A DNA stretch of 13,574 nt from Pseudomonadota bacterium (lineage in GTDB: Bacteria > Pseudomonadota > Gammaproteobacteria > Acidithiobacillales > Acidithiobacillaceae): positions 1 to 13,574 of the forward strand of contig JAKCBU010000009.1 of the NCBI GenBank assembly GCA_021839095.1. Direction: 5' to 3'. Numbering within the stretch: the first letter of the stretch is position 1; the number at the start of each line of letters is the position of its first letter. The notes under the pieces were generated by a model. That model saw only the letters and a program-made list of their open reading frames with translations. It had not been told where the DNA came from and did not search any database. Made by a program: the position numbers and the translations under genes. Shown piece after piece: positions 1,609 through 13,574 of the stretch.

Positions 1609-2402
1609 TTACCGCCACGCTGCTGTTTCTGCTGGTTCTTGGTTTGATTTTCTGGGCCTCCTTCTGGATTTTTCTGGTTTTTCTCCTGTTGCTGGCTCTG
1701 CTGGCGGGACGGGAGTGGGGCCAGCTCAGCCTGATGGCCCGACCCGGCTGGCTGGCGGTGGCGCTGGCCGTGCTGGTGCCCGTTGCCGCCCTTTCCGGTC
1801 TGGTATCGTGGCCAACTCTCGCCGCGGGCAGCGTAATCTGGTGGCTATCGCTGATGATATTGCTGGCCACTCTGTCACCGACGCCTTTGCGCGAGGCCTC
1901 CGCCTGGCAGCACGTGGTGAGCGCGCTGTGCGTTTTCCCCACGCTGCTGCCCGCCCTGCTGTTGAGCCTGCATCTGCAGCAGCGCGCGCCATGGCTCCTG
2001 CTTTGGGTGATTCTGGTGGTCAGTGCTGGTGATGTGGGGGCGATGACTTTTGGAAAGATCTGGGGGCGCCGCCGCCTGGTCCCGCGCATCAGCCCTGGAA
2101 AGACCTGGGAAGGCCTGCTGGGTGGCTTGCTTGCCAGCGCCATTATGGGCACACTGGGCGGGTGGGTATGGATGGGCGCAACGGTCTCCATACTTTGTCT
2201 CGGTGCCGTTCTGGGATTGATCACCGGGGCTTTTGCGGTCTCAGGGGATCTTTCCGAGAGTTTTCTGAAGCGCCGCGCGGATTGCAAGGAGAGTGGCCAG
2301 TTGCTGCCGGGACATGGTGGTTTGCTGGATCGCTTGGACAGCATGAGTGCCGGCATCCCGGTCTTTGTGGCCGGGCTCTATTATCTGGGTTGGTGGAAAT
2401 GA
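1590..2402 (+). CDS. cdsA: Phosphatidate cytidylyltransferase (CDP-diglyceride synthase)
   Basis: This 270-residue integral membrane enzyme makes CDP-diacylglycerol from CTP and phosphatidic acid, the branch-point step of phospholipid synthesis. The N-terminal two thirds is mostly hydrophobic, with several long Leu/Val/Ala-rich segments beginning at residue 7. Family motifs follow: [15 protein letters not shown], then [10 protein letters not shown], then the C-terminal signature from S-x-x-L-K-R through [12 protein letters not shown]. In that signature the usual Lys-Asp-Ser-Gly is Lys-Glu-Ser-Gly (Glu at residue 234, bases 2289-2291), a conservative change at a normally invariant acidic position. 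The start is TTG at 1590, 19 nt inside uppS. GGAGG at 1581-1585 precedes it at a short 4-nt spacing, and MLRQRLITA is a typical CdsA N-terminus. The stop overlaps dxr by 4 nt. Confidence 0.94.
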
Positions 2403-3583
2403 CACGAGGGATTTGCATACTCGGGGCGACGGGCTCCATCGGCAGGAGCACCTTGGATGTGGTGGCACTGCATCCGGATCGTTTCCGGATCGTTGCTCTG
2501 ACGGGAAATCATCGCGTCGCGGAAATGCAGGAGATTTGTCGTCTCCATCATCCCCAACTGGTAGTCATGGCGGCTCCGGAGGCCGCGCAGCGATTGCGGA
2601 TGGCCCTGCGCGATGAGGGTCTGAAAGACATCCAGGTGGAGAGTGGCCCGGAGGCCCTGGCGGAAGCCGCGCGTATGCCTGGAGTGGACGAAGTCATGGC
2701 CGCTATTGTCGGAGCGGCCGGTCTGTTGCCGACCCTGGCTGCGGTGGAGTCGGGCAAAAGGGTCTACTTGGCCAACAAGGAATGCCTGGTCATGGCCGGG
2801 AACCTGTTCATGGAGCGGGTGCATCAGCGTCAGATAACACTACTCCCCATAGACAGTGAACATAACGCGGTGTTTCAGTGCCTTGCGGAAGGCAAGGGGG
2901 TGCGCCGTATTATGCTGACCGCCTCCGGCGGACCCTTCCGCACCTGGCCGGTGGAGCGCCTGGCGGCGGTCACGCCCGACCAGGCTTGTGCTCATCCCAA
3001 TTGGGTCATGGGACGCAAGATTTCCGTGGATTCAGCGACCATGATGAACAAAGGTCTGGAAGTCATCGAGGCGCATTGGCTCTTCGATCTGCCGGCCGCG
3101 CAGATCGATGTGCTCATTCATCCGCAAAGCATCATCCACTCCATGGTGGAGTATGTGGATGGCTCCGTGCTGGCGCAATTGGGCAACCCCGACATGCGTA
3201 CCCCCATTGCCCATGCATTGGCCTATCCGGGACGGATGGAGAGCGGTGTCTCTTCGCTGGATTTGGCGCGGGGTCCGGATCTCCGATTCGAGGAACCGGA
3301 TTTGCAGCGTTTTCCGTGTCTGGCGTTGGCTTTCAATGCCTTGCGTGCCGGTGGCGCCGCGGCGACCGTGCTGAATGCGGCGAATGAGGTCGCGGTGCAG
3401 GCCTTCCTGGACGGAGCCCTGCCCTTCTCCCGGATTGCGGCGGTTGTGGAGGAGACGCTCACGGATTTACAGCCGGCTGCCCCGGATCATCTGGACGGCG
3501 TGCTGGAAATCGACCGCTTGGCCCGGGCAAACGCGGTTCGCCACCTGTCCGGACAGGAGTCGAGCAGGCGGCGGTCTTCCTGA
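2399..3583 (+). CDS. dxr: 1-deoxy-D-xylulose 5-phosphate reductoisomerase
   Basis: The 394-residue product (E. coli about 398) converts 1-deoxyxylulose 5-phosphate to 2-C-methyl-D-erythritol 4-phosphate with NADPH, the first committed step of the MEP isoprenoid pathway in the cytoplasm. Visible features are the NADPH-binding GATGSIG (residues 9-15), [11 protein letters not shown], and [12 protein letters not shown] with the metal-binding Asp152 and Glu154. Also present are [27 protein letters not shown] followed by Glu221 (the third metal ligand by alignment), [12 protein letters not shown] and [12 protein letters not shown]. Compared with E. coli, the loop between DSEHNA and SGGPFR is about 12 residues shorter. 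The ATG at 2399 forms an ATGA overlap with the cdsA stop and places GATGSIG at the normal distance. A longer in-frame reading from 2162 lies inside cdsA and is not needed. It supplies precursors for UppS. Confidence 0.97.
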
Positions 3584-4948: not shown

Positions 4949-7290
4949 AAAAATACAGCCTCAGCTTGGCCTCCCCCGTAATTCTCGCCGCCGGTGTGGC
5001 TTGCGTCACCGCCGCCTGGGCGGTACCCGCCTGGGCATTTACGCCCTTTACGGTCAAAAATATAGAAATTCGCGGCCTGGAGCATATCGCTCCTGGCACG
5101 GTCTATAATTACCTGCCCATCCATATTGGCGATCAAGTGGATGACCAGCAGGCGCAGCAGGCCATCAAGGCGCTGTATTCCACAGGTTTCTTCAAGGATG
5201 TGACCATCGCCCGTTCCGGTGGCACCCTGCTGGTGATCGTGCAGGAACGGCCCATCATCGCCAGTATCCATTTGAAGGGCATAAAGGCCTTTTCTAAAAG
5301 TGAGGTCAATGGCACTCTCAAAGGACTCGGACTGGTGGATCGGCGAATCTTTAATCGTTCGGTGCTCGATCAGGTGGTGCGTGGCCTGCAAGAACAATAC
5401 GAAGGCATGGGCTACTACAATGCCAAAATTCATGCGCGGGTCGAAAAACTCCCGCGTAACCGGGTGGCGATCCATATCGATGCGCAAGAGGGCGAGCAGG
5501 CTACTATCAAGCAGGTGACCATTGTTGGCAATCACGCCTTCAGTGAAAGTCGGTTACGCGGATTGTTCAGTGTCGGTGCGCCGAATGCCTTCTCCTTTTT
5601 CACTAAAAATGATCGTTACTCCCGGGAAAAGCTCATGCGAGGCCTCGAAAAGCTGCATAACTTCTATCTGGATCGTGGCTATCTGAATTTCGATGTGGAA
5701 TCGAGCCAAGTACAGGTGTCGCCGGATCGGCGCTTTGTTTATATCACCATCAATGTGCATGAGGGTGATGTCTATCATGTCCAGTCCGTGAATTTGAGCG
5801 GTAACTTGATAGTGCCCAAACCGGAACTGGAAAAACTGGTTGAAATCAAGCCAGGGGATTTGTTCTCGCGCGCCAAGATCAACGACACCAACAGTGCCAT
5901 CGCAGACAAGTTGGGTGATTTGGGTTACGCATTCGCCAACACCACGCCGGTGCCCAAGGTGAACCCAAAAACCCATGAAGTGGCCCTGGACTTTCAGGTC
6001 GATCCGGGTCGCAAGGTCTACATACGTCGTATTGAGATTACTGGCAACGACAAGAGCCGGGACTATGTGGTGCGGCGTCAATTCCGCCAGATGGAAGGCG
6101 CGCTCTATAACGGCGCGCTGATCAAACGTTCCAAGATGCGCCTGCAGCAGACAGGTTTTTACGACAAGATAAACACCAAGACGGTGCCGGTTCCCGGACA
6201 TCCGGATGAGTTGGATCTCGATGTGCATGTGAGTGAGAGGCCGACGGGTAGTTTTAGTATCGGCGTGGGCTATTCCAATGCGCAAGGGGTCCTGTTCAAC
6301 GGATCCGTCAGCCAGAACAACTTCATGGGGACCGGCAACGCCTTGTCGCTCTCGGCGAATGTGGGCGGCTTGGGGACGGCGTATAATCTTTCTTTCACAG
6401 ACCCGTATTTTACGCCGGATGGCGTCAGTCTGGGCTTTAATCTGTATATGAACAACACCAATCTGTCCATCCTGTCCGTCGCCCCTTATCAGGAGATCGA
6501 TTATGGTGGCGCCGTGACACTGGGTATTCCGGTGATGCAGTATGTGTATGACTATATGTCGCTGGGATTCAGTAATACGACGATTAATCTGTTTTCTAAC
6601 TCTCCCTACATCTACCAAAATTATGTCAATACGTTTGGCCGTACCGCCACCGCGTTGACCGTGGGTAATAACCTGACGTATGACAGCCGGAATTCACCCA
6701 TTTTCCCCACCAAGGGATTCTATGGAAGCTTGTCGCTCAAGGCGGCGGTCCCCCCCGCGAAGCTGCGTTGGTACAAGGCGGAGATCAAAGCCAACTACTA
6801 CCATCCGATTAACTCCTGGCTGACGGCCGGTGTGGGCGGACGTTACGGATTTATTAACGGCTACGGGGGTAAACAGGTTCCATTTTTCAATAATTATTAT
6901 CTGGGCGGTCCGACCACCTTGCCGGGTTATCAAACGTATTCGTTGGGACCACAGGTGGGCGGCTATCCGGTGGGTGGTACCCGTGAACTGCTGTTCAATG
7001 CCAGTCTGTATTTCCCGCTACCGGGTCTTGCAAGCGATAGCAATTTCCGGATGTCATTGTTTTTGGCCAGCGGGTGGGTTTATGGTGTGGAGGCAAATAC
7101 CAGTGGCTCGGTCTACAACTACAGCAATAACTACTTCCCAGGTTTGGGCCAAATGCGAACGACGGCCGGTGTCGGTTTTCTGTGGATCAGCCCGATGGGT
7201 CCCTTGCGCCTGTCGCTCGCTGTGCCGCTCGACAAACGGCCGGGTGATTTGACTCAGCCCCTGCAGTTCACCGTCGGCAACAATTTTTGA
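4945..7290 (+). CDS. bamA: Outer-membrane protein assembly factor BamA (Omp85), with atypical L6 motif
   Basis: The 781-residue precursor is the central subunit of the BAM complex, which folds and inserts beta-barrel proteins into the outer membrane. A signal peptide (KK near the start, hydrophobic core, AWA before about residue 32) is followed by five POTRA domains, roughly residues 32-430. The surface-antigen barrel runs from about residue 434 to the C-terminal Phe, which closes a normal beta-signal. The start is GTG at 4945, overlapping the rseP stop (GTGA). Length and position are canonical, but the loop-6 motif that is normally V-R-G-F/Y reads L-P-G-Y (residues 659-662). Two acidic residues reported to pair with its Arg (E. 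coli Glu717 and Asp740, by my recall) align with Tyr689 and Ala708. The rest of the barrel is intact, so this looks like a functional variant, not decay. A second bamA copy elsewhere cannot be excluded. Confidence 0.96.
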   Translation: MKKYSLSLASPVILAAGVACVTAAWAVPAWAFTPFTVKNIEIRGLEHIAPGTVYNYLPIHIGDQVDDQQAQQAIKALYSTGFFKDVTIARSGGTLLVIVQERPIIASIHLKGIKAFSKSEVNGTLKGLGLVDRRIFNRSVLDQVVRGLQEQYEGMGYYNAKIHARVEKLPRNRVAIHIDAQEGEQATIKQVTIVGNHAFSESRLRGLFSVGAPNAFSFFTKNDRYSREKLMRGLEKLHNFYLDRGYLNFDVESSQVQVSPDRRFVYITINVHEGDVYHVQSVNLSGNLIVPKPELEKLVEIKPGDLFSRAKINDTNSAIADKLGDLGYAFANTTPVPKVNPKTHEVALDFQVDPGRKVYIRRIEITGNDKSRDYVVRRQFRQMEGALYNGALIKRSKMRLQQTGFYDKINTKTVPVPGHPDELDLDVHVSERPTGSFSIGVGYSNAQGVLFNGSVSQNNFMGTGNALSLSANVGGLGTAYNLSFTDPYFTPDGVSLGFNLYMNNTNLSILSVAPYQEIDYGGAVTLGIPVMQYVYDYMSLGFSNTTINLFSNSPYIYQNYVNTFGRTATALTVGNNLTYDSRNSPIFPTKGFYGSLSLKAAVPPAKLRWYKAEIKANYYHPINSWLTAGVGGRYGFINGYGGKQVPFFNNYYLGGPTTLPGYQTYSLGPQVGGYPVGGTRELLFNASLYFPLPGLASDSNFRMSLFLASGWVYGVEANTSGSVYNYSNNYFPGLGQMRTTAGVGFLWISPMGPLRLSLAVPLDKRPGDLTQPLQFTVGNNF

Positions 7291-7307
7291 CGGGGTGGTG
7301 TTAAGGA

Positions 7308-7844
7308 ATGGGCTGGTCATTGCGGACAGGGGTTATCCTGCTGATATTGCTGGCTTCGGGAACGGCATGGGCCGCCCCCTTGAAGATTGGTTTTGTGGAT
7401 CTCGATCGCGCGCTGCGCGAATTGCCGGAGGCGCGGGCGGGCGCGATTAACCTTAACAAGCAGGTGGCGGCGAAACAAAGAGAAATCGAGGCCAAGCGGC
7501 AACAGATCGGTGATGCGCAAAAAGCCTTGGAGAAAGATTTTCCCCATCTCACCAATGCGCAACGGCAGGAACGGGAGGCGCGATTGCAGAGCATGATTCT
7601 CAATTTGCAACAGTTCCAACGGCAGGCTCAGGACAGCCTGAGTTATCAGCGCAACCAGATTCTTAAAAGGATTCAGGATCAACTGGTCAAGGTGGTGAGC
7701 CGGATTGGGCGCGCCGGACACTATACTGTCATTTTGAATGATAAATCGGTGCTTTACGTGAGTGGAGCCATTGATCTCACTTCGCAGGTGGTCGCTGCGA
7801 TGGCGAATAAACCGATGCCTGGCAAGGCCGGTGGTGGTAAGTAG
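7308..7844 (+). CDS. skp: Periplasmic chaperone Skp/OmpH
   Basis: The 178-residue product is an OmpH/Skp-family protein. Skp trimers hold unfolded outer-membrane proteins in the periplasm and deliver them to BAM. A signal peptide ends at about TAWA (residue 22) before [14 protein letters not shown], the usual first beta-strand of mature Skp. A long charged helical stretch with regular Gln, Lys, Glu and Arg spacing (about residues 45-130) fits the coiled-coil tentacles. [22 protein letters not shown] is the typical C-terminal body strand. The start is uncertain: AAGGA at 7303-7307 directly abuts the ATG at 7308, whereas a TTG four codons on (7320) would have normal spacing and still leave a good signal peptide. 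It lies 17 nt after bamA and 1 nt before lpxD, as in many Proteobacteria. Confidence 0.92.
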
Positions 7845-7845
7845 C

Positions 7846-8907
7846 GTGACCGGTAAAGAATACTTGCTGGGAGAGCTTGCGGTGGTGGCCGGTGCGGAGT
7901 TGCGTGGTGATCCCGCGTATCGAATCCGTGCGCTGGCCCCCCTGGAGACGGCGGGGAGCGGGGATCTGACATTTTATCAGGATGCCCGCCTGCGTGGCCG
8001 ATTGATGGCGAATCAGGCCGGAGCGGTGATTCTCACTCCCGCCGCGGCGCAAACGTTTCCTGGACAGTGTTTGTTGACGGCCAACCCCTATGCGGCATTC
8101 GCGCGAGTCATGCAATATCTGTATCCACCGCTGGTGCCCCGGCCTGGGCTGCACCACACGGCACAACTGGCGCGGGACGCGCAGATAGATCCCAGCGCGC
8201 GCGTGGATGCCTACGTGCAAGTAGGGGCCGGGGCGGTGATCGCGGCGGAGGTCTGGTTGGAGGCGGGCACCTTTATTGGCGCGGCGGTGGAAGTGGGACG
8301 CGGGTCACACCTCTATCCTGGGGTCAAGGTCTATGCGGGTTGCAAACTGGGCGCGCACTGCATCCTCCATGCCGGTGCGGTGATCGGTGCCGATGGTTTC
8401 GGTTTTGCCGAGGCGGATGGCCAGTTTCTGAAAATACCGCAGGTGGGTCGTGTGCGCATTGGGGATAACGTGGAGATCGGTGCCAATACGTGTATCGACC
8501 GTGGTGTCCTGGACGATACGTGTATCGAGGATGGCGTGAAAATGGATAATCTGGTGCAGATCGGGCACAACGTCCGGATCGGTGCGCATTCGGTGATCGC
8601 CGGGCAGACCGGTATTGCGGGGAGTACGCGCATAGGCCGTCATTGCCGCATCGGTGGTCAGGTGGGGATCACCGGACATATCGAAATCGCCGATGGGTGT
8701 GTAATCGCCGGGCAGAGTGCAATCACGCACTCGTTGCGTCGCGCGGGTATTTATTCGGGGGTCATTCCGGCCCAAGAGGTGAGTCGTTGGCGGCGCATCG
8801 CGGCGCGTTTCGATGGATTGGATCTGTTATTTCGGCGCGTGCGGCGTTTGGAGCGCGGCGCGGGCGAGAATTTATCCACAAACGGAGAGTCGTCTGATCG
8901 TGAATGA
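7846..8907 (+). CDS. lpxD: UDP-3-O/N-acylglucosamine N-acyltransferase LpxD
   Basis: The product is 353 residues from the GTG at 7846 (E. coli LpxD 341). LpxD transfers a 3-hydroxyacyl chain from ACP to the 2-amino group of the UDP-monoacyl sugar, the third step of lipid A synthesis. An N-terminal uridine-binding domain ([16 protein letters not shown] near the start, DLTFYQD) precedes a left-handed beta-helix of many hexapeptide repeats with I/V-G spacing. The catalytic His by alignment is His241 in QIGHNVRIG, matching E. coli His239. [20 protein letters not shown] and [12 protein letters not shown] are family blocks. The reading frame stays open upstream to 7762, but that extension runs through skp and has no family counterpart. 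GTG codons at 7831 and 7834 are alternative starts. The end overlaps fabZ by 8 nt. Because gnnA and gnnB are present, its natural substrate probably carries an amide at position 3. Confidence 0.94.
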
Positions 8908-9346
8908 GCTGAATATTCAGGATATTCTTAAACGTTTGCCGCATCGTTATCCATTGCTGCTAGTGGATAGGGTGGTGGAAATAGAGGTGGGGAAACGTCT
9001 GCGAGCGTTGAAGAATGTGACCATGAATGAACCACATTTCGAGGGGCACTTCCCGAATTTCCCCGTCATGCCAGGTGTGCTCATCATCGAAGCCCTTGCG
9101 CAGGCCGCCGCTCTTCTCGCCTTTGTTTCAGAAGATAAATATGGTGAGAACGCGACGGTCTACTTCGCGGGTATCGATAAGGCGCGTTTTCGTAGACCGG
9201 TGACTCCCGGCGATCAACTGGAACTGGTGGCCAATGTGAGTCGGCGGCGTGCCGGCATGTGGCAAATGGAAACGGCGGCGCTGGTGGATGGTGTGGAGGT
9301 CGCTTCCGCGTTGTTGATGGCGACACTGCGCGAGTATGCTCAATGA
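8900..9346 (+). CDS. fabZ: 3-hydroxyacyl-ACP dehydratase FabZ
   Basis: The 148-residue product is the hot-dog-fold dehydratase that turns (3R)-hydroxyacyl-ACP into trans-2-enoyl-ACP during fatty-acid elongation. It competes with LpxA and LpxD for the same hydroxyacyl-ACP, so it sets the balance between phospholipid and lipid A. Motifs are [13 protein letters not shown] near the start, and [18 protein letters not shown] with catalytic His50, followed by Glu64 in the helix [26 protein letters not shown] is also typical. The start is GTG at 8900, with GGAGAG at 8884-8889 at 10-nt spacing, inside the end of lpxD. An in-frame upstream ATG at 8813 would lie well inside lpxD and adds no family sequence. 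The stop overlaps lpxA as ATGA. Confidence 0.96.
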
Positions 9347-10125
9347 CGGCGCGGATTCATCCCCAGGCCGTGATCGATGCCTCGGCGCGGATTGGGGACG
9401 GCTGCGTGATCGGGCCTTTCGCGGTGATTGGCGCAGGAGTGGAAATCGGCGATCATTCCCGCATCGGGGCCCATGCCGTGATCGAGGGTCCCACCCGTTT
9501 GGGTGTCCACAATCATGTCTTTCAGTTTGCTTCCATCGGCACCGCTCCGCAGGACCTCGGTTATCGGGGGGAACCCACGGAGCTCCATGTGGGGTCGCAT
9601 AATACCATCCGGGAATTCGTGACCATCAACCGGGGTACCGTAAAAGGGGGGGGCATCACGCGGATCGGCAACCATAATCTCCTGATGGCTTATTGTCATG
9701 TGGCACATGACTGCTGTATCGGTGATCAGGTGGTAATGGCCAATGCGGCAACATTGGCAGGGCACGTGAGTGTGGAGGATCACGCCATTCTCGGTGGATT
9801 GTCGGCGGTGCATCAGTACGCACGGGTGGGCGCACACGCTATTCTGGGAGGTGGCACGATGGCGCCCCTGGACATTCCTCCCTACATGATGGCGGCCGGG
9901 AATCATGCCAGTCTGCACGGGATCAATGTGCGCGGCTTGGCGCGGCGCGGTATTTCGCGGGAAACCATCGTGCAGATTAAACGTGCTTATCGCCTGTTGT
10001 TTCGCTCCGGACAACGTCTGGAAGATGCCATGGATGAAGTGCGGAGACGCGGTTTGAGCGCTCCGGAGATCGCTTATCTGTTGGAGTTCATTCGCAGCAG
10101 CAAGCGGGGAATCACCCGGCCATGA
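9343..10125 (+). CDS. lpxA: UDP-GlcNAc (or UDP-GlcNAc3N) acyltransferase LpxA
   Basis: The 260-residue product catalyses the first acylation of lipid A synthesis, moving a 3-hydroxyacyl chain from ACP to position 3 of the UDP-sugar. It consists of hexapeptide repeats (left-handed beta-helix) and a C-terminal helical part from about residue 190. Catalytic and binding residues align with E. coli: His122 in CHVAHDC (E. coli His125), His119, His141 and His157 in AVHQY. The hydrocarbon-ruler position, E. coli Gly173, is Gly170 here, which suggests a long, about C14, hydroxyacyl chain. Next to gnnA and gnnB the acceptor is likely the 3-amino sugar, giving an amide; I recall that the A. ferrooxidans enzyme accepts that analogue. 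A run of eight G residues (9646-9653) codes for part of Lys-Gly-Gly-Gly. The ATG overlaps the fabZ stop, and the TGA overlaps the gnnA start. Confidence 0.96.
   Translation: MTARIHPQAVIDASARIGDGCVIGPFAVIGAGVEIGDHSRIGAHAVIEGPTRLGVHNHVFQFASIGTAPQDLGYRGEPTELHVGSHNTIREFVTINRGTVKGGGITRIGNHNLLMAYCHVAHDCCIGDQVVMANAATLAGHVSVEDHAILGGLSAVHQYARVGAHAILGGGTMAPLDIPPYMMAAGNHASLHGINVRGLARRGISRETIVQIKRAYRLLFRSGQRLEDAMDEVRRRGLSAPEIAYLLEFIRSSKRGITRP
9646..9653 (+). repeat. Homopolymer tract of eight G residues in lpxA
   Basis: Eight consecutive G residues follow AAAA within codons 102-104 of lpxA. The glycines are conserved in the family, but the two GGG codons make the longest mononucleotide run I noticed in the window. 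Such tracts can slip during replication or transcription; whether this one does cannot be seen here. Confidence 0.7.
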
Positions 10126-11063
10126 AAAGTCTGCGCAGCGGTGTTATCGGTGTGGGTCATCTGGGCCGTTTCCACGCCCAAAAGTACGCGGTGCTTTCGC
10201 AACTGGCGGGGGTTTTCGACCAGCATGCCGAGCGGGCCGCGGAGGTGGCTGCGGAGTTGGGCTGCCGCGCTTTTCCCAGTGTCCATGCCCTGTTGGCCGA
10301 AGTGGATGTGGTGTCCGTTGTGACCCCCACCTCCACGCATTTTGCGGTGGCGGAAGCCGCGCTCCAGGCGGGGGTGCATTGTCTGGTGGAGAAGCCCTTC
10401 ACGCTGGATACGGAGGAGGCGGACCGCTTGATGGCGATGGCCCTGCAGCGCCAATTGGTGCTGGCTGTCGGACATATCGAGCGGGTGCATCCGGCGGTTC
10501 GGTATTTGCTCCAGGCGGGCTTTGGCGCGCCCCGTTACCTGGAAGCGGAACGATTGGCGCCTTTCAAGCCCCGTTCGCTGGATATCGATGTCATCATGGA
10601 TCTGATGATCCACGATCTGGATCTGGCCCTGCTCCTGACGGGCGCGGAACCGGCGGAGGTCCGTGCCGTCGGCGTCGCAGCCGTGACGGACAAGGCGGAT
10701 ATGGCCCATGCCTGGATGACGTTGAGTGATGGCACGGTGGCGAATCTGGCGGCCTCGCGGGTAGTCCGGGAGCCGGCGCGGCGCATGCGTATCTTCTGGC
10801 AGGACCGTTACGCTTCCGTGGATTTTTCCAATAACACCCTGCACATCTATCATCGCGGAGCAGGGGCGGTGCCGGGGATTCCCGGGGTGCGGGATGAAAC
10901 CGTGGACTTACCCAAGCGGGATGCCCTGGCGGCGGAAATCGAGGATTTCTTGAGCGCGGTTCTGTCTCGCCACCCCGTGTTTTGCGACGGCGCGGCGGGT
11001 CGGCGGGTATTGGCGGCTGCCCTCCAGGTGCGGGCCGCGGTCGACGCTTTTTTGCAGCACTAG
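10122..11063 (+). CDS. gnnA: UDP-GlcNAc 3-dehydrogenase, Gfo/Idh/MocA family (GnnA)
   Basis: The 313-residue product is a Gfo/Idh/MocA-type NAD(P)-dependent sugar oxidoreductase. A Rossmann fold opens with GVIGVGHLG (Gly10-x-Gly12-x-x-Gly15). It is followed by the family's Glu-Lys-Pro (residues 90-92, Lys91 in the active site), GHIERVHPAVR from residue 117, and MIHDLDL with His164. From its place between lpxA and lpxB I assign it as GnnA. That enzyme, described in A. ferrooxidans, oxidises the 3-hydroxyl of UDP-GlcNAc to a ketone with NAD, the substrate for the next gene's aminotransferase. The ATG overlaps the lpxA stop (ATGA), so it is likely translated with lpxA. Related enzymes such as WbpB/WlbA act on UDP-GlcNAc uronate for O-antigen sugars. 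That alternative is less likely here because no UDP-GlcNAc dehydrogenase or O-antigen gene is nearby. Confidence 0.87.
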   Translation: MKSLRSGVIGVGHLGRFHAQKYAVLSQLAGVFDQHAERAAEVAAELGCRAFPSVHALLAEVDVVSVVTPTSTHFAVAEAALQAGVHCLVEKPFTLDTEEADRLMAMALQRQLVLAVGHIERVHPAVRYLLQAGFGAPRYLEAERLAPFKPRSLDIDVIMDLMIHDLDLALLLTGAEPAEVRAVGVAAVTDKADMAHAWMTLSDGTVANLAASRVVREPARRMRIFWQDRYASVDFSNNTLHIYHRGAGAVPGIPGVRDETVDLPKRDALAAEIEDFLSAVLSRHPVFCDGAAGRRVLAAALQVRAAVDAFLQH

Positions 11064-11107
11064 CCGCGTGGCGATGCGCGCGTGATTCTTTGTCTGGACG
11101 GTGATGC
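11064..11107 (+). other. 44-nt gnnA-gnnB spacer with two short chained reading frames
   Basis: This is the longest gap between genes in the window. It holds a 5-codon frame (GTG 11068 to TGA 11085), whose stop overlaps as GTGA with a 9-codon frame starting at GTG 11082. That frame ends in TGA at 11109-11111, overlapping the gnnB ATG. No terminator or strong hairpin is visible, and the Shine-Dalgarno for gnnB is weak. The short frames may be chance. Confidence 0.35.
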
Positions 11108-12217
11108 ATGACTCAACATACAGCAATCCCCATGGTCGATTTGCGGGCGCACTTCGCGCCGCTGCGAGAAGAGATTCTGGCGGGGATGGGAAAAATTCTG
11201 GATCAGGCCGGTTTCATTCTGGGGGATCAGGGCCGTGCCCTGGAAGCGGAGGTGGCGGATCTCTCGGGTGTGGCCTATGGGGTGGGTTGCGCGTCCGGCA
11301 CGGATGCCCTGATGCTGGCGTTGCGCGCTCTGGACATCGGCCCTGGCGATGAGGTGATCGTGCCGACTTTCACGTTCATCGCTACTGCGGAAGCCGTGCT
11401 TCATGTGGGGGCCACACCGGTTTTCGTGGATGTGGATGCACGTTTCTACACCATGGAGGTGACCGCTATCGAGGCGGCCATCACCTCCAGGACCAAGGCG
11501 ATTATTCCGGTGCATCTCTACGGCTTGCCTGCGGATATGCCGGCCATCATGGCGCTGGCGCACCAACATGGATTACGGGTCGTGGAGGATTGCGCCCAGG
11601 CCATTGGTGCCGAGATCGGCGGGCAGCGGGTAGGTGGTTTTGGCGATCTCGGCTGCTTTTCCTTCTTTCCCAGCAAAAATCTCGGAGGTGCGGGGGACGG
11701 TGGAATGGTGGTCACCGCAGACGCGACGTTGGCGCACAAGCTGCGCGGATTGCGCAACCATGGTTCCTGGCAGACGTATCACCATGATGTGCTGGGTTAT
11801 AACAGCCGTCTGGATGAGGTGCAGGCCATGATTCTGCGAACCGAGTTCCCGCACCTCGCGACATATAACGCGGGGCGGCGGCAAGCGGCGGCCTGGTATG
11901 CGCAGCACCTGGGCGACTTGGATCTGCAACTGCCTGAATCGCCGCCGGGTTATCATCATGTCTTTCACCAGTTCACCCTGCGCTTGCACGCACGGGACGT
12001 CGTGAAGGCCGCCCTCCATGCGGAGGGCATCGCCAGCGCCATTTACTATCCGATTCCGGGTCACCGGCAAAAAATGTTTGCACCCCAATCCCCAGCCTGT
12101 TGCCCGGTGGCGGAGGGCTTGGCGGAGCGCGTGCTCTCGCTGCCCATGTTTCCGGAACTGCGTGAGGAGCAGATTGCCCGGATCGCTGCCGTGATCCGTC
12201 GTACCCTGCACGGTTAA
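11108..12217 (+). CDS. gnnB: PLP-dependent UDP-sugar 3-aminotransferase, DegT/DnrJ/EryC1 family (GnnB)
   Basis: The 369-residue product is a type-I-fold DegT/DnrJ/EryC1 sugar aminotransferase. Visible motifs are GCASGTDALMLALRAL (PLP-phosphate region), GDEVIVPTFTFIATAEAV, VVEDCAQAIGA with Asp161 expected to bind the PLP ring nitrogen and Gln164, and FSFFPSKNLGGAGDGG with Lys190 as the Schiff-base lysine. RNHGS and YNSRLDEVQAMIL are also typical. By position next to gnnA and between lpxA and lpxB it is GnnB, which uses glutamate to aminate the 3-keto sugar made by GnnA, giving UDP-GlcNAc3N for LpxA. The family also contains O-antigen and antibiotic-sugar aminotransferases, so the exact substrate rests on context. 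The ATG at 11108 follows a weak GGACGG. The TAA at 12215-12217 is the only TAA stop among the visible genes. lpxB begins 4 nt later. Confidence 0.87.
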   Translation: MTQHTAIPMVDLRAHFAPLREEILAGMGKILDQAGFILGDQGRALEAEVADLSGVAYGVGCASGTDALMLALRALDIGPGDEVIVPTFTFIATAEAVLHVGATPVFVDVDARFYTMEVTAIEAAITSRTKAIIPVHLYGLPADMPAIMALAHQHGLRVVEDCAQAIGAEIGGQRVGGFGDLGCFSFFPSKNLGGAGDGGMVVTADATLAHKLRGLRNHGSWQTYHHDVLGYNSRLDEVQAMILRTEFPHLATYNAGRRQAAAWYAQHLGDLDLQLPESPPGYHHVFHQFTLRLHARDVVKAALHAEGIASAIYYPIPGHRQKMFAPQSPACCPVAEGLAERVLSLPMFPELREEQIARIAAVIRRTLHG

Positions 12218-12221
12218 GGTC

Positions 12222-13352
12222 TTGGGCAAGGCCTTCATCCTCGCGGTAGAGCGTTCCGGCGAGAATCTGGGGCTGGAAATCCTGGCGAATGCCGTGCAAG
12301 CGGGGTTGAATGTGGACTGGTCCGGGGTGGTCGGGCCGCGCCTGCGGAAGGCGGGTGTGAAAAGTATTGCCGATGGTGAAGTGCTGGCCGTGATCGGTCT
12401 GGTGGAAGTGTTACGGCACTATGGCCGTTTGCGCCGCCTTTACGCGCGGATTTTGCGCCATCTGCGGACGGAGCGACCGGACTGCGTGGTGCTGATCGAC
12501 CATCCGGCTTTCAACCTGCGGGTGGCGAAGGCCGCGAAACGGCTGGGTATCCGGGTGCTTTACGTGGTGGGCCCGCAGATTTGGGCTTGGCGCCCGCAGC
12601 GTATTCATCGGATCAAGCAAGTGGTGGATCACATGCTGGTCCTGTTCCCCTTCGAAGTGCCCCTCTATGAGCGGGCGGGGGTGCCGGTGCATGTACTGGC
12701 GCATCCCCTGCTGGCAGAGACCGCGGTGGCACCGGATCGCGGTACCGCAAGATCGACGCTGGGTATGGCCGGCGATACCGGTCCGGTGCTTGCCCTGTTG
12801 CCGGGTAGCCGATACGGCGAGTTGGAGAGACTGGCCCCGCGTTACGCCGAGACGGCACGTCTGCTTCGCCAGCGGATGCCTGACCTGCGCATATTGGTCG
12901 CTCTGGCCCGGGAAGAACTGCGCCCTCTCTGGGAGCGGGCCTGGGCGCAGGGCGCGGGTCCCGGCGATGCGTGGATCGTGCCGATGCAAACGCAGACGGT
13001 GCTGGCGGCGGCGGATGTGGTGCTGGTGGCGTCGGGAACGGCGACATTGGAGACGGCCCTTATGGGCCGTCCGGCGGTGGTCGTCTATGTTTTGAACGCG
13101 CTCACCTTTGCCTTTGCCCGGCGATTGGTCAAGACACCGTGCGTGGCCATGCCGAATATCCTGCTGAAGGATCTCGTGTATCCCGAGTTTCTGCAGGATG
13201 CTTTTGTGCCGGCTCAGGTGGCGGATGCCCTGGCAATGCTTTTTGGTCCGGCGGGCCTCGTGCAGGTGGCGAAACTGCAGAAACTGCGCGATTTGCTGGA
13301 AGGAAGCCCTCCGGAGCAGTTGCGGCAAGTGCTTTGCGAGATGCTGGCATGA
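12222..13352 (+). CDS. lpxB: Lipid A disaccharide synthase LpxB
   Basis: The 376-residue product (E. coli 382) is the GT19 glycosyltransferase that joins UDP-diacyl-glucosamine to lipid X with release of UDP, on the cytoplasmic membrane face. Family blocks are [77 protein letters not shown] and [17 protein letters not shown]. The N-terminal motif, usually A-G-E-x-S-G-D, reads A-V-E-R-S-G-E (residues 8-14), with Gly to Val and Asp to Glu. The start must be TTG at 12222: upstream in frame there is a stop at 12192 and no ATG or GTG before it. TAAGG at 12215-12219 sits only 2 nt away, so initiation probably relies on coupling to gnnB. Its substrates here are expected to carry amide rather than ester chains at position 3. 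Confidence 0.94.
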
Positions 13353-13369
13353 AGCCGGTGATCGTATGA
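13349..13369 (+). other. Six-codon reading frame bridging lpxB and rnhB
   Basis: An ATG overlaps the lpxB stop (ATGA, 13349-13352), runs six codons (MKPVIV) and ends in a TGA at 13367-13369. That stop overlaps the rnhB ATG at 13366 as a second ATGA. It could pass ribosomes from lpxB to rnhB, or it may be chance. No product function is proposed. Confidence 0.4.
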
Positions 13370-13574
13370 AAAAGGTACCGGAGCTGGCACACTGGGGTCC
13401 CCAGTGTGCCGGAGTGGATGAGGCGGGGCGGGGACCGTTGGCGGGGCCGGTGGTGGCTGCTGCCGTCATCCTGCGCGCGCCCCTGCAGGGTCTGGATGAT
13501 TCCAAGAAAATGACGGCGATGGCACGGACGCATTGGGCCGCCCGTATTCGTGCGGAGGCGTTGGCCTGGTCGGT
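13366..13574 (+). CDS. rnhB: Ribonuclease HII, N-terminal part (3' end outside window)
   Basis: The first 69 codons of RNase HII are present. The enzyme nicks RNA in RNA-DNA hybrids and at single ribonucleotides in DNA, acting in the cytoplasm in ribonucleotide excision repair. The hallmark [21 protein letters not shown] begins at residue 16, and Asp18 and Glu19 are the first two metal-binding catalytic residues. LDDSKKM is also typical. The ATG at 13366 gives a 15-residue lead before GVDE, as in E. coli RnhB. The only obvious later start, a GTG at 13415, would begin at the catalytic motif itself. lpxB followed by rnhB is the usual gamma-proteobacterial order, commonly continuing to dnaE. Codons 7-15 lie in a perfect palindrome described separately. 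The remaining catalytic residues lie beyond the window. Confidence 0.95.
13386..13410 (+). repeat. Perfect 12-bp inverted repeat with 1-nt centre at the start of rnhB
   Basis: GGCACACTGGGG (13386-13397) and its exact reverse complement (13399-13410) flank a single T. As RNA it would form an 11-bp stem with a 3-nt loop, extendable by a G-U and a C-G pair at the base. It begins 20 nt after the rnhB ATG and encodes Ala8-His9-Trp10-Gly11-Pro12-Gln13-Cys14-Ala15 with flanking bases. No T-tract follows, so it is not a typical Rho-independent terminator. Confidence 0.85.

Follow-up and report, generated by a model that had tools for sequence, protein, structure and literature searches.

The DNA analyzed here, a stretch of 13,574 nucleotides from a genome of the Acidithiobacillaceae (hereinafter, the window), carries two genes, gnnA and gnnB, inserted between lpxA and lpxB, which serve lipid A synthesis. 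The insertion is confirmed: open reading frames and family matches place both genes at 10122-12217, as had been proposed in a previous reading made from the nucleotide sequence alone (hereinafter, the sequence-only reading), and they also bear out its assignment of an NAD-type dehydrogenase and a DegT aminotransferase. The gnnA gene (10122..11063, + strand, 313 amino acids (aa), ATG start) encodes a predicted NAD-type UDP-N-acetylglucosamine (UDP-GlcNAc) 3-dehydrogenase of the Gfo/Idh/MocA family (PF01408, 101 bits) that matches the PDB chain 7bvj. The gnnB gene (11108..12217, + strand, 369 aa, ATG start) encodes a pyridoxal phosphate (PLP)-dependent aminotransferase of the DegT/DnrJ family (PF01041, 390 bits). 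The flanking genes, lpxA for UDP-GlcNAc acyltransferase (9343..10125, + strand, 260 aa) and lpxB for lipid A disaccharide synthase (12222..13352, + strand, 376 aa, TTG start), both exceed the respective NCBIfam cut-offs (TIGR01852, 344 bits vs 231, and TIGR00215, 260 bits vs 190).

The lpxA/gnnA junction, CCATGAAAAG, contains the ATGA overlap that the same reading had pointed out, and fabZ (8900..9346, + strand, likely GTG start) is joined to lpxA in the same way. The gap between gnnA and gnnB is 44 bases long, and the TTG codon of lpxB lies 4 bases past the gnnB stop. The same gene string includes the N-acyltransferase gene lpxD (7846..8907, + strand), which, like fabZ, was identified by its open reading frame and a family search. 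The + strand order across the window is bamA, skp, lpxD, fabZ, lpxA, gnnA, gnnB, lpxB and the start of rnhB; bamA, skp and rnhB are presumed identities, taken from the reading frames rather than from a family search. The lpx-gnn string is predicted to be, and likely is, carried on one transcript. Between 7200 and 13574, there are 2 promoter-like sites, vs 2.1 in shuffled sequences; one of the two lies within gnnA, in the + orientation. The GC content of gnnA (64.1%) and gnnB (61.5%) resembles that of the neighbors (53.2-63.9%) and there is no sign of foreign DNA, so recent acquisition of the two genes was rejected.

The GnnA protein of the window is identical to 7bvj in 266 of 309 positions (86%, 585.7 bits), with the next PDB chain at 64.3 bits. 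We take 7bvj to be GnnA of Acidithiobacillus ferrooxidans; its name in PDB is only 'Oxidoreductase, NAD-binding', and 7BVJ was not mentioned in the open-access papers that were text-searched. The matched part of 7bvj is identical in 310 of 310 positions to GnnA of one of the compared genomes (G015), which has the order lpxA-gnnA-gnnB-lpxB and, given this identity and the presumed source of 7bvj, probably belongs to A. ferrooxidans. The GnnA of the window itself is 99% identical to those of Acidithiobacillus ferrianus MG (L021) and of genome G001, which places the window in an Acidithiobacillus closely related to A. ferrianus. The Rossmann motif GVGHLG starting at G10, K91 of an EKP motif, and D160-x3-H164 are all the same in 7bvj, and we assume that these motifs have the roles generally attributed to them. 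In the GnnA tree, the window and the other rows from the order Acidithiobacillales form a single 9-row set (support 99/96). Among the 120 listed GnnA relatives, those that carry a name from their source are annotated as Gfo/Idh/MocA family protein, Gfo/Idh/MocA family oxidoreductase or predicted dehydrogenase, and one as UDP-N-acetyl-D-glucosamine dehydrogenase.

The window GnnB is identical in 313 of 369 positions (85%) to the product of the partner gene in G015. Its relatives with solved structures are not close (358 bits for 7b0d and 285 bits for WbpE, an enzyme of the Pseudomonas O-antigen pathway). K190 in the motif FFPSKN occupies the same alignment column as the FFPSKP lysine of WbpE and presumably is the PLP lysine. 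In a tree of 42 rows, GnnB of the window and seven more rows from Acidithiobacillales form a group (100/100) nested in a 13-row set (98/88) that consists of these 8 rows, 3 that are lpxB-linked, 1 that is gnnA-linked and 1 of unknown linkage. The lpx-linked GnnBs do not form one clade in this tree (5 changes), and the Elusimicrobiota copies fall apart from the rest.

The arrangement is a stable feature of the order. We searched 57 genomes, 31 from Acidithiobacillales and 26 others of the class, and found a GnnA match at E <= 0.001 in 49 of them; the match is strong in 30 of the 31 Acidithiobacillales, the only genome without one (G021) being 71% complete. The string lpxA-gnnA-gnnB is present in all 23 Acidithiobacillales genomes in which the DNA of the locus was read (L001-L020, L101, L102 and L118), a recurrence that argues against a chance arrangement, and lpxB follows in 21 of the 23, the DNA of the two exceptions (L004 and L017) ending inside gnnB. 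In the loci L001-L041, which come from two overlapping collections and hence do not represent 41 separate genomes, lpxA precedes gnnA in 41/41 cases, gnnB follows in 40/41 (L040 is cut inside gnnA) and lpxB in 36/41 (all five loci without it are cut); three of these loci are titled only Proteobacteria bacterium and were counted by their 67-85% GnnA identity. In L039, from a metagenome-assembled genome (MAG) of Igneacidithiobacillus, gnnB appears as two separate matches (2137-3071), perhaps due to a frameshift or an assembly fault.

Elsewhere the genes are combined in other ways. Among the 26 members of the class from outside the order, 12 have GnnA matches of >180 bits; gnnB is beside gnnA in 7 of these 12, lpxB is beside the set in 7, and both are in 3, with lpxA directly before gnnA in none of the 12 loci. 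Outside the class, we examined the 59 loci with the best GnnA matches (L042-L100), mostly from Elusimicrobiota. Several contain all four genes, gnnB being placed ahead of gnnA (as in L050, L057 and L080), and lpxA-gnnA-lpxB without gnnB at the locus is found in L042 (G058), L045 (G059) and L065 (G064). Within these samples, the order lpxA-gnnA-gnnB-lpxB is found only in Acidithiobacillales.

The three loci that lack gnnB belong to MAGs of Oligoflexia (L042), Zixibacteria (L045) and Endomicrobiales (L065, where an additional 266-aa frame follows lpxA). The genome G064 is the only one among 20 genomes searched with no GnnB match at E <= 0.001, although this MAG may be incomplete. Furthermore, gnnA lies beside lpxB without an adjoining gnnB in L106 (G054), L107 (G057), L109 (G055) and L111 (G035), and in all four of these genomes the highest-scoring GnnB match falls with WbpE in the tree. 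The GnnAs of L107, L109 and L111 are embedded among GnnAs that have a linked gnnB (93/90 and 96/83), which, together with the WbpE-like affinity of the GnnB matches, suggests that gnnB perhaps was lost or replaced there; G057 additionally has a broken GnnB-like copy.

Both inserted genes are under strong constraint. The ratios of nonsynonymous to synonymous substitution rates (dN/dS) against Acidithiobacillus ferruginosus and Acidithiobacillus ferriphilus, which are rough given that dS is >1, are 0.072 and 0.075 for gnnA and 0.075 and 0.080 for gnnB, compared with 0.054 and 0.037 for lpxA and 0.136 and 0.112 for lpxB, that is, within the range of lpxA, fabZ, lpxD and lpxB (0.037-0.136). These more distant species were used because dS against A. 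ferrianus is just 0.05-0.09; the ratios against A. ferrianus alone are 0.047 for gnnA, 0.140 for gnnB and 0.220 for lpxB.

Taken together, gene order, orthology, conserved residues, constraint and the presence of other lipid A genes in near relatives (LpxC in 6/6, an LpxH match in 6/6, with 4/6 over the cut-off, and an LpxL-type acyltransferase in 6/6) support the identification of the two genes as the characterized lipid A genes gnnA and gnnB. We hold this explanation to be very probable; the reactions and the product in this organism are predicted by homology. GnnA would oxidize the 3-hydroxyl of UDP-GlcNAc with NAD+, and GnnB, with glutamate as the probable amino donor, would transaminate the resulting 3-ketone to UDP-GlcNAc3N. 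LpxA would then acylate the 3-amino group with a 3-hydroxyacyl chain, forming an amide, and LpxC, LpxD, LpxH, LpxB and later enzymes would yield a lipid A in which amides at position 3 replace some or all of the esters.

The system is already known, as was maintained in the sequence-only reading, which had also traced it to A. ferrooxidans; the 7bvj match, the identical operon in G015 and the literature agree with both points. Specifically, A. ferrooxidans GnnA and GnnB are credited with making the 2,3-diamino sugar GlcN3N in passages of two papers (PMC3342949, PMC8036547), and the reference list of a third (PMC5644692) includes the title of a 2004 paper on GlcN3N synthesis by these enzymes. 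The window pair shares with that of A. ferrooxidans (presumably G015) the gene order, the family signatures and the sequence identity given above, the differences observed being at the species level only. The gnnA and gnnB genes of Mesorhizobium, Phyllobacterium and Bradyrhizobium are described in PMC5644692 as performing the same two steps toward GlcN3N lipid A, but they lie away from the lpxD-lpxA-lpxB cluster and, in M. loti, also apart from each other.

An alternative assignment would make the two genes a WbpB/WbpE-type pair for a diacetamido-uronate sugar of O-antigen that lies inside the lpx cluster by chance. The WbpB and WbpE enzymes of Pseudomonas belong to the same superfamilies as GnnA and GnnB and catalyze a similar 3-oxidation and 3-transamination, with a uronate as the substrate. 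Grouping with WbpB/WbpE, which the sequence-only reading had named as one outcome that would refute its assignment, was not recovered for GnnB: WbpE belongs to a separate 10-row set (100/100), away from the 13-row set of the window GnnB. For GnnA, the name WbpB or WlbA is absent among the best 60 of 80 PDB matches; two distant dehydrogenases (L115 and L117) tried as WbpB references were rejected for lack of a match to a PDB chain so named, so that the GnnA tree has no labeled WbpB/WlbA row, and its three far rows sit on very long branches with unsure placement. Given the GnnB tree, the PDB ranking, the closeness of GnnA to 7bvj and the lpxA-lpxB setting of the pair in the order, we reject the WbpB/WbpE assignment as extremely improbable. 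Several observations nevertheless weigh against the GnnA/GnnB identification. The WbpE set, the GnnB set and L112/L113 join in a 25-row set (88/80), making WbpE a near neighbor, and the apparent distinction between WbpE-like and GnnB-like proteins comes from one tree. No NCBIfam model scores over its cut-off for either protein; the best match of GnnA, UDP-GlcNAc 3-dehydrogenase, speaks for the identification but is far below threshold (155 bits vs 450). Finally, the 7200-13574 region contains 10 terminator-like sites vs 5.4 (standard deviation 2.7) in shuffled sequences, 3 of the 10 representing one hairpin in the gnnA-gnnB gap.

A variant of the GnnA/GnnB explanation, rather than its opposite, is that LpxA accepts both UDP-GlcNAc and UDP-GlcNAc3N, giving a mixed lipid A or a hybrid disaccharide instead of an all-amide product; we give it a chance slightly short of even. 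The LpxA of A. ferrooxidans is reported to be relaxed. A single LpxA was found in each of the 8 Acidithiobacillales genomes searched, along with four additional weak hits of 20-32 bits, of which three fall at lpxD. The window LpxA keeps H122 and G170, corresponding to H125 and to G173, the chain-length position, of the Escherichia coli enzyme, roles that we assume here; tabulation of the residues around the active site showed that catalytic residues are kept and identified no mark of sugar choice. A proline that precedes the conserved glutamine (at the position of E. coli N72) was considered as such a mark and dropped because it is present in 93/93 LpxA rows, with and without linked gnnB alike, and thus tells nothing on the sugar choice of LpxA. 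Hybrid backbones are known from Granulibacter and from Capnocytophaga, the latter with two lpxA genes and a GlcN3N-GlcN backbone, as stated in passages of PMC3342949 and PMC8036547.

Among 31 loci from outside Acidithiobacillia with a full-length lpxA match, 21 have two tandem lpxA genes preceding gnnB-gnnA. All 21 belong to Elusimicrobiota (Endomicrobium and its kin; L054, L056, L057, L058, L060, L062, L066, L067, L068, L070, L071, L073, L074, L077, L079, L081, L082, L093, L095, L098 and L100); further members of the phylum, L078 and L092 for instance, have one lpxA. A literature search on lpxA in this group yielded a single paper, which by its title concerns a soybean metagenome. The two copies form separate groups (Shimodaira-Hasegawa-like approximate likelihood ratio test support 99, in a quick tree without bootstrap), and histidine occupies the site equivalent to E. 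coli H125 in 21/21 sequences of each copy. By analogy with Capnocytophaga, one could speculate that these bacteria make hybrid lipid A by means of two specialized LpxAs.

In the sequence-only reading, it was inferred that the acid resistance of amides suits an acidophile. The corresponding explanation, that the operon was gained or retained because of the resistance of amides to hydrolysis by acid, agrees with the general chemistry of amides and with the presence of the operon in all 21 Acidithiobacillaceae genomes with the locus read (L001-L020 and L118). However, the same lpxA-gnnA-gnnB-lpxB order is found in G030 and G031, the two genomes from the sister family, and G030 is judged to be Thermithiobacillus plumbiphilus, its GnnA being identical in 314/314 positions to a protein so named (P0036). 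The genus Thermithiobacillus as a whole is called neutrophilic in the abstract of PMC8886135, in the text of which 'lpx' does not occur, and cultures of T. tepidarius are described in an excerpt of PMC5037610 as going from pH 6.8 to 7.5-8.0 and ending at 5.2. PMC8036547 also names Legionella, Brucella, Bartonella, Mesorhizobium and Caulobacter among the bacteria with GlcN3N lipid A. Thus, the inference was not borne out, and we consider an origin by acid adaptation unlikely. The sister-family proteins are sisters to those of Acidithiobacillaceae in both trees (100/97 vs 100/98 for GnnA and 99/92 vs 99/97 for GnnB), which is consistent with vertical descent within the order and presence in its common ancestor. 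Together with the operon in the sister family, this makes acid a less likely cause of the operon but leaves room for the operon being useful in acid. We tentatively suggest, as a scenario somewhat less likely than its negation, that GlcN3N lipid A was present in a neutrophilic ancestor of Acidithiobacillales, was inherited vertically and served as a pre-adaptation that eased later extreme acidophily, instead of arising alongside acidophily as a response to acid.

The assignment of gnnA and gnnB indicates what kind of lipid A this acidophile can be expected to make. Given that the named database copies carry superfamily or generic names only, the case shows what gene context adds to annotation. 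Gene content does not bear out the tempting idea of acid adaptation, because a sister genus described as neutrophilic shares the operon.

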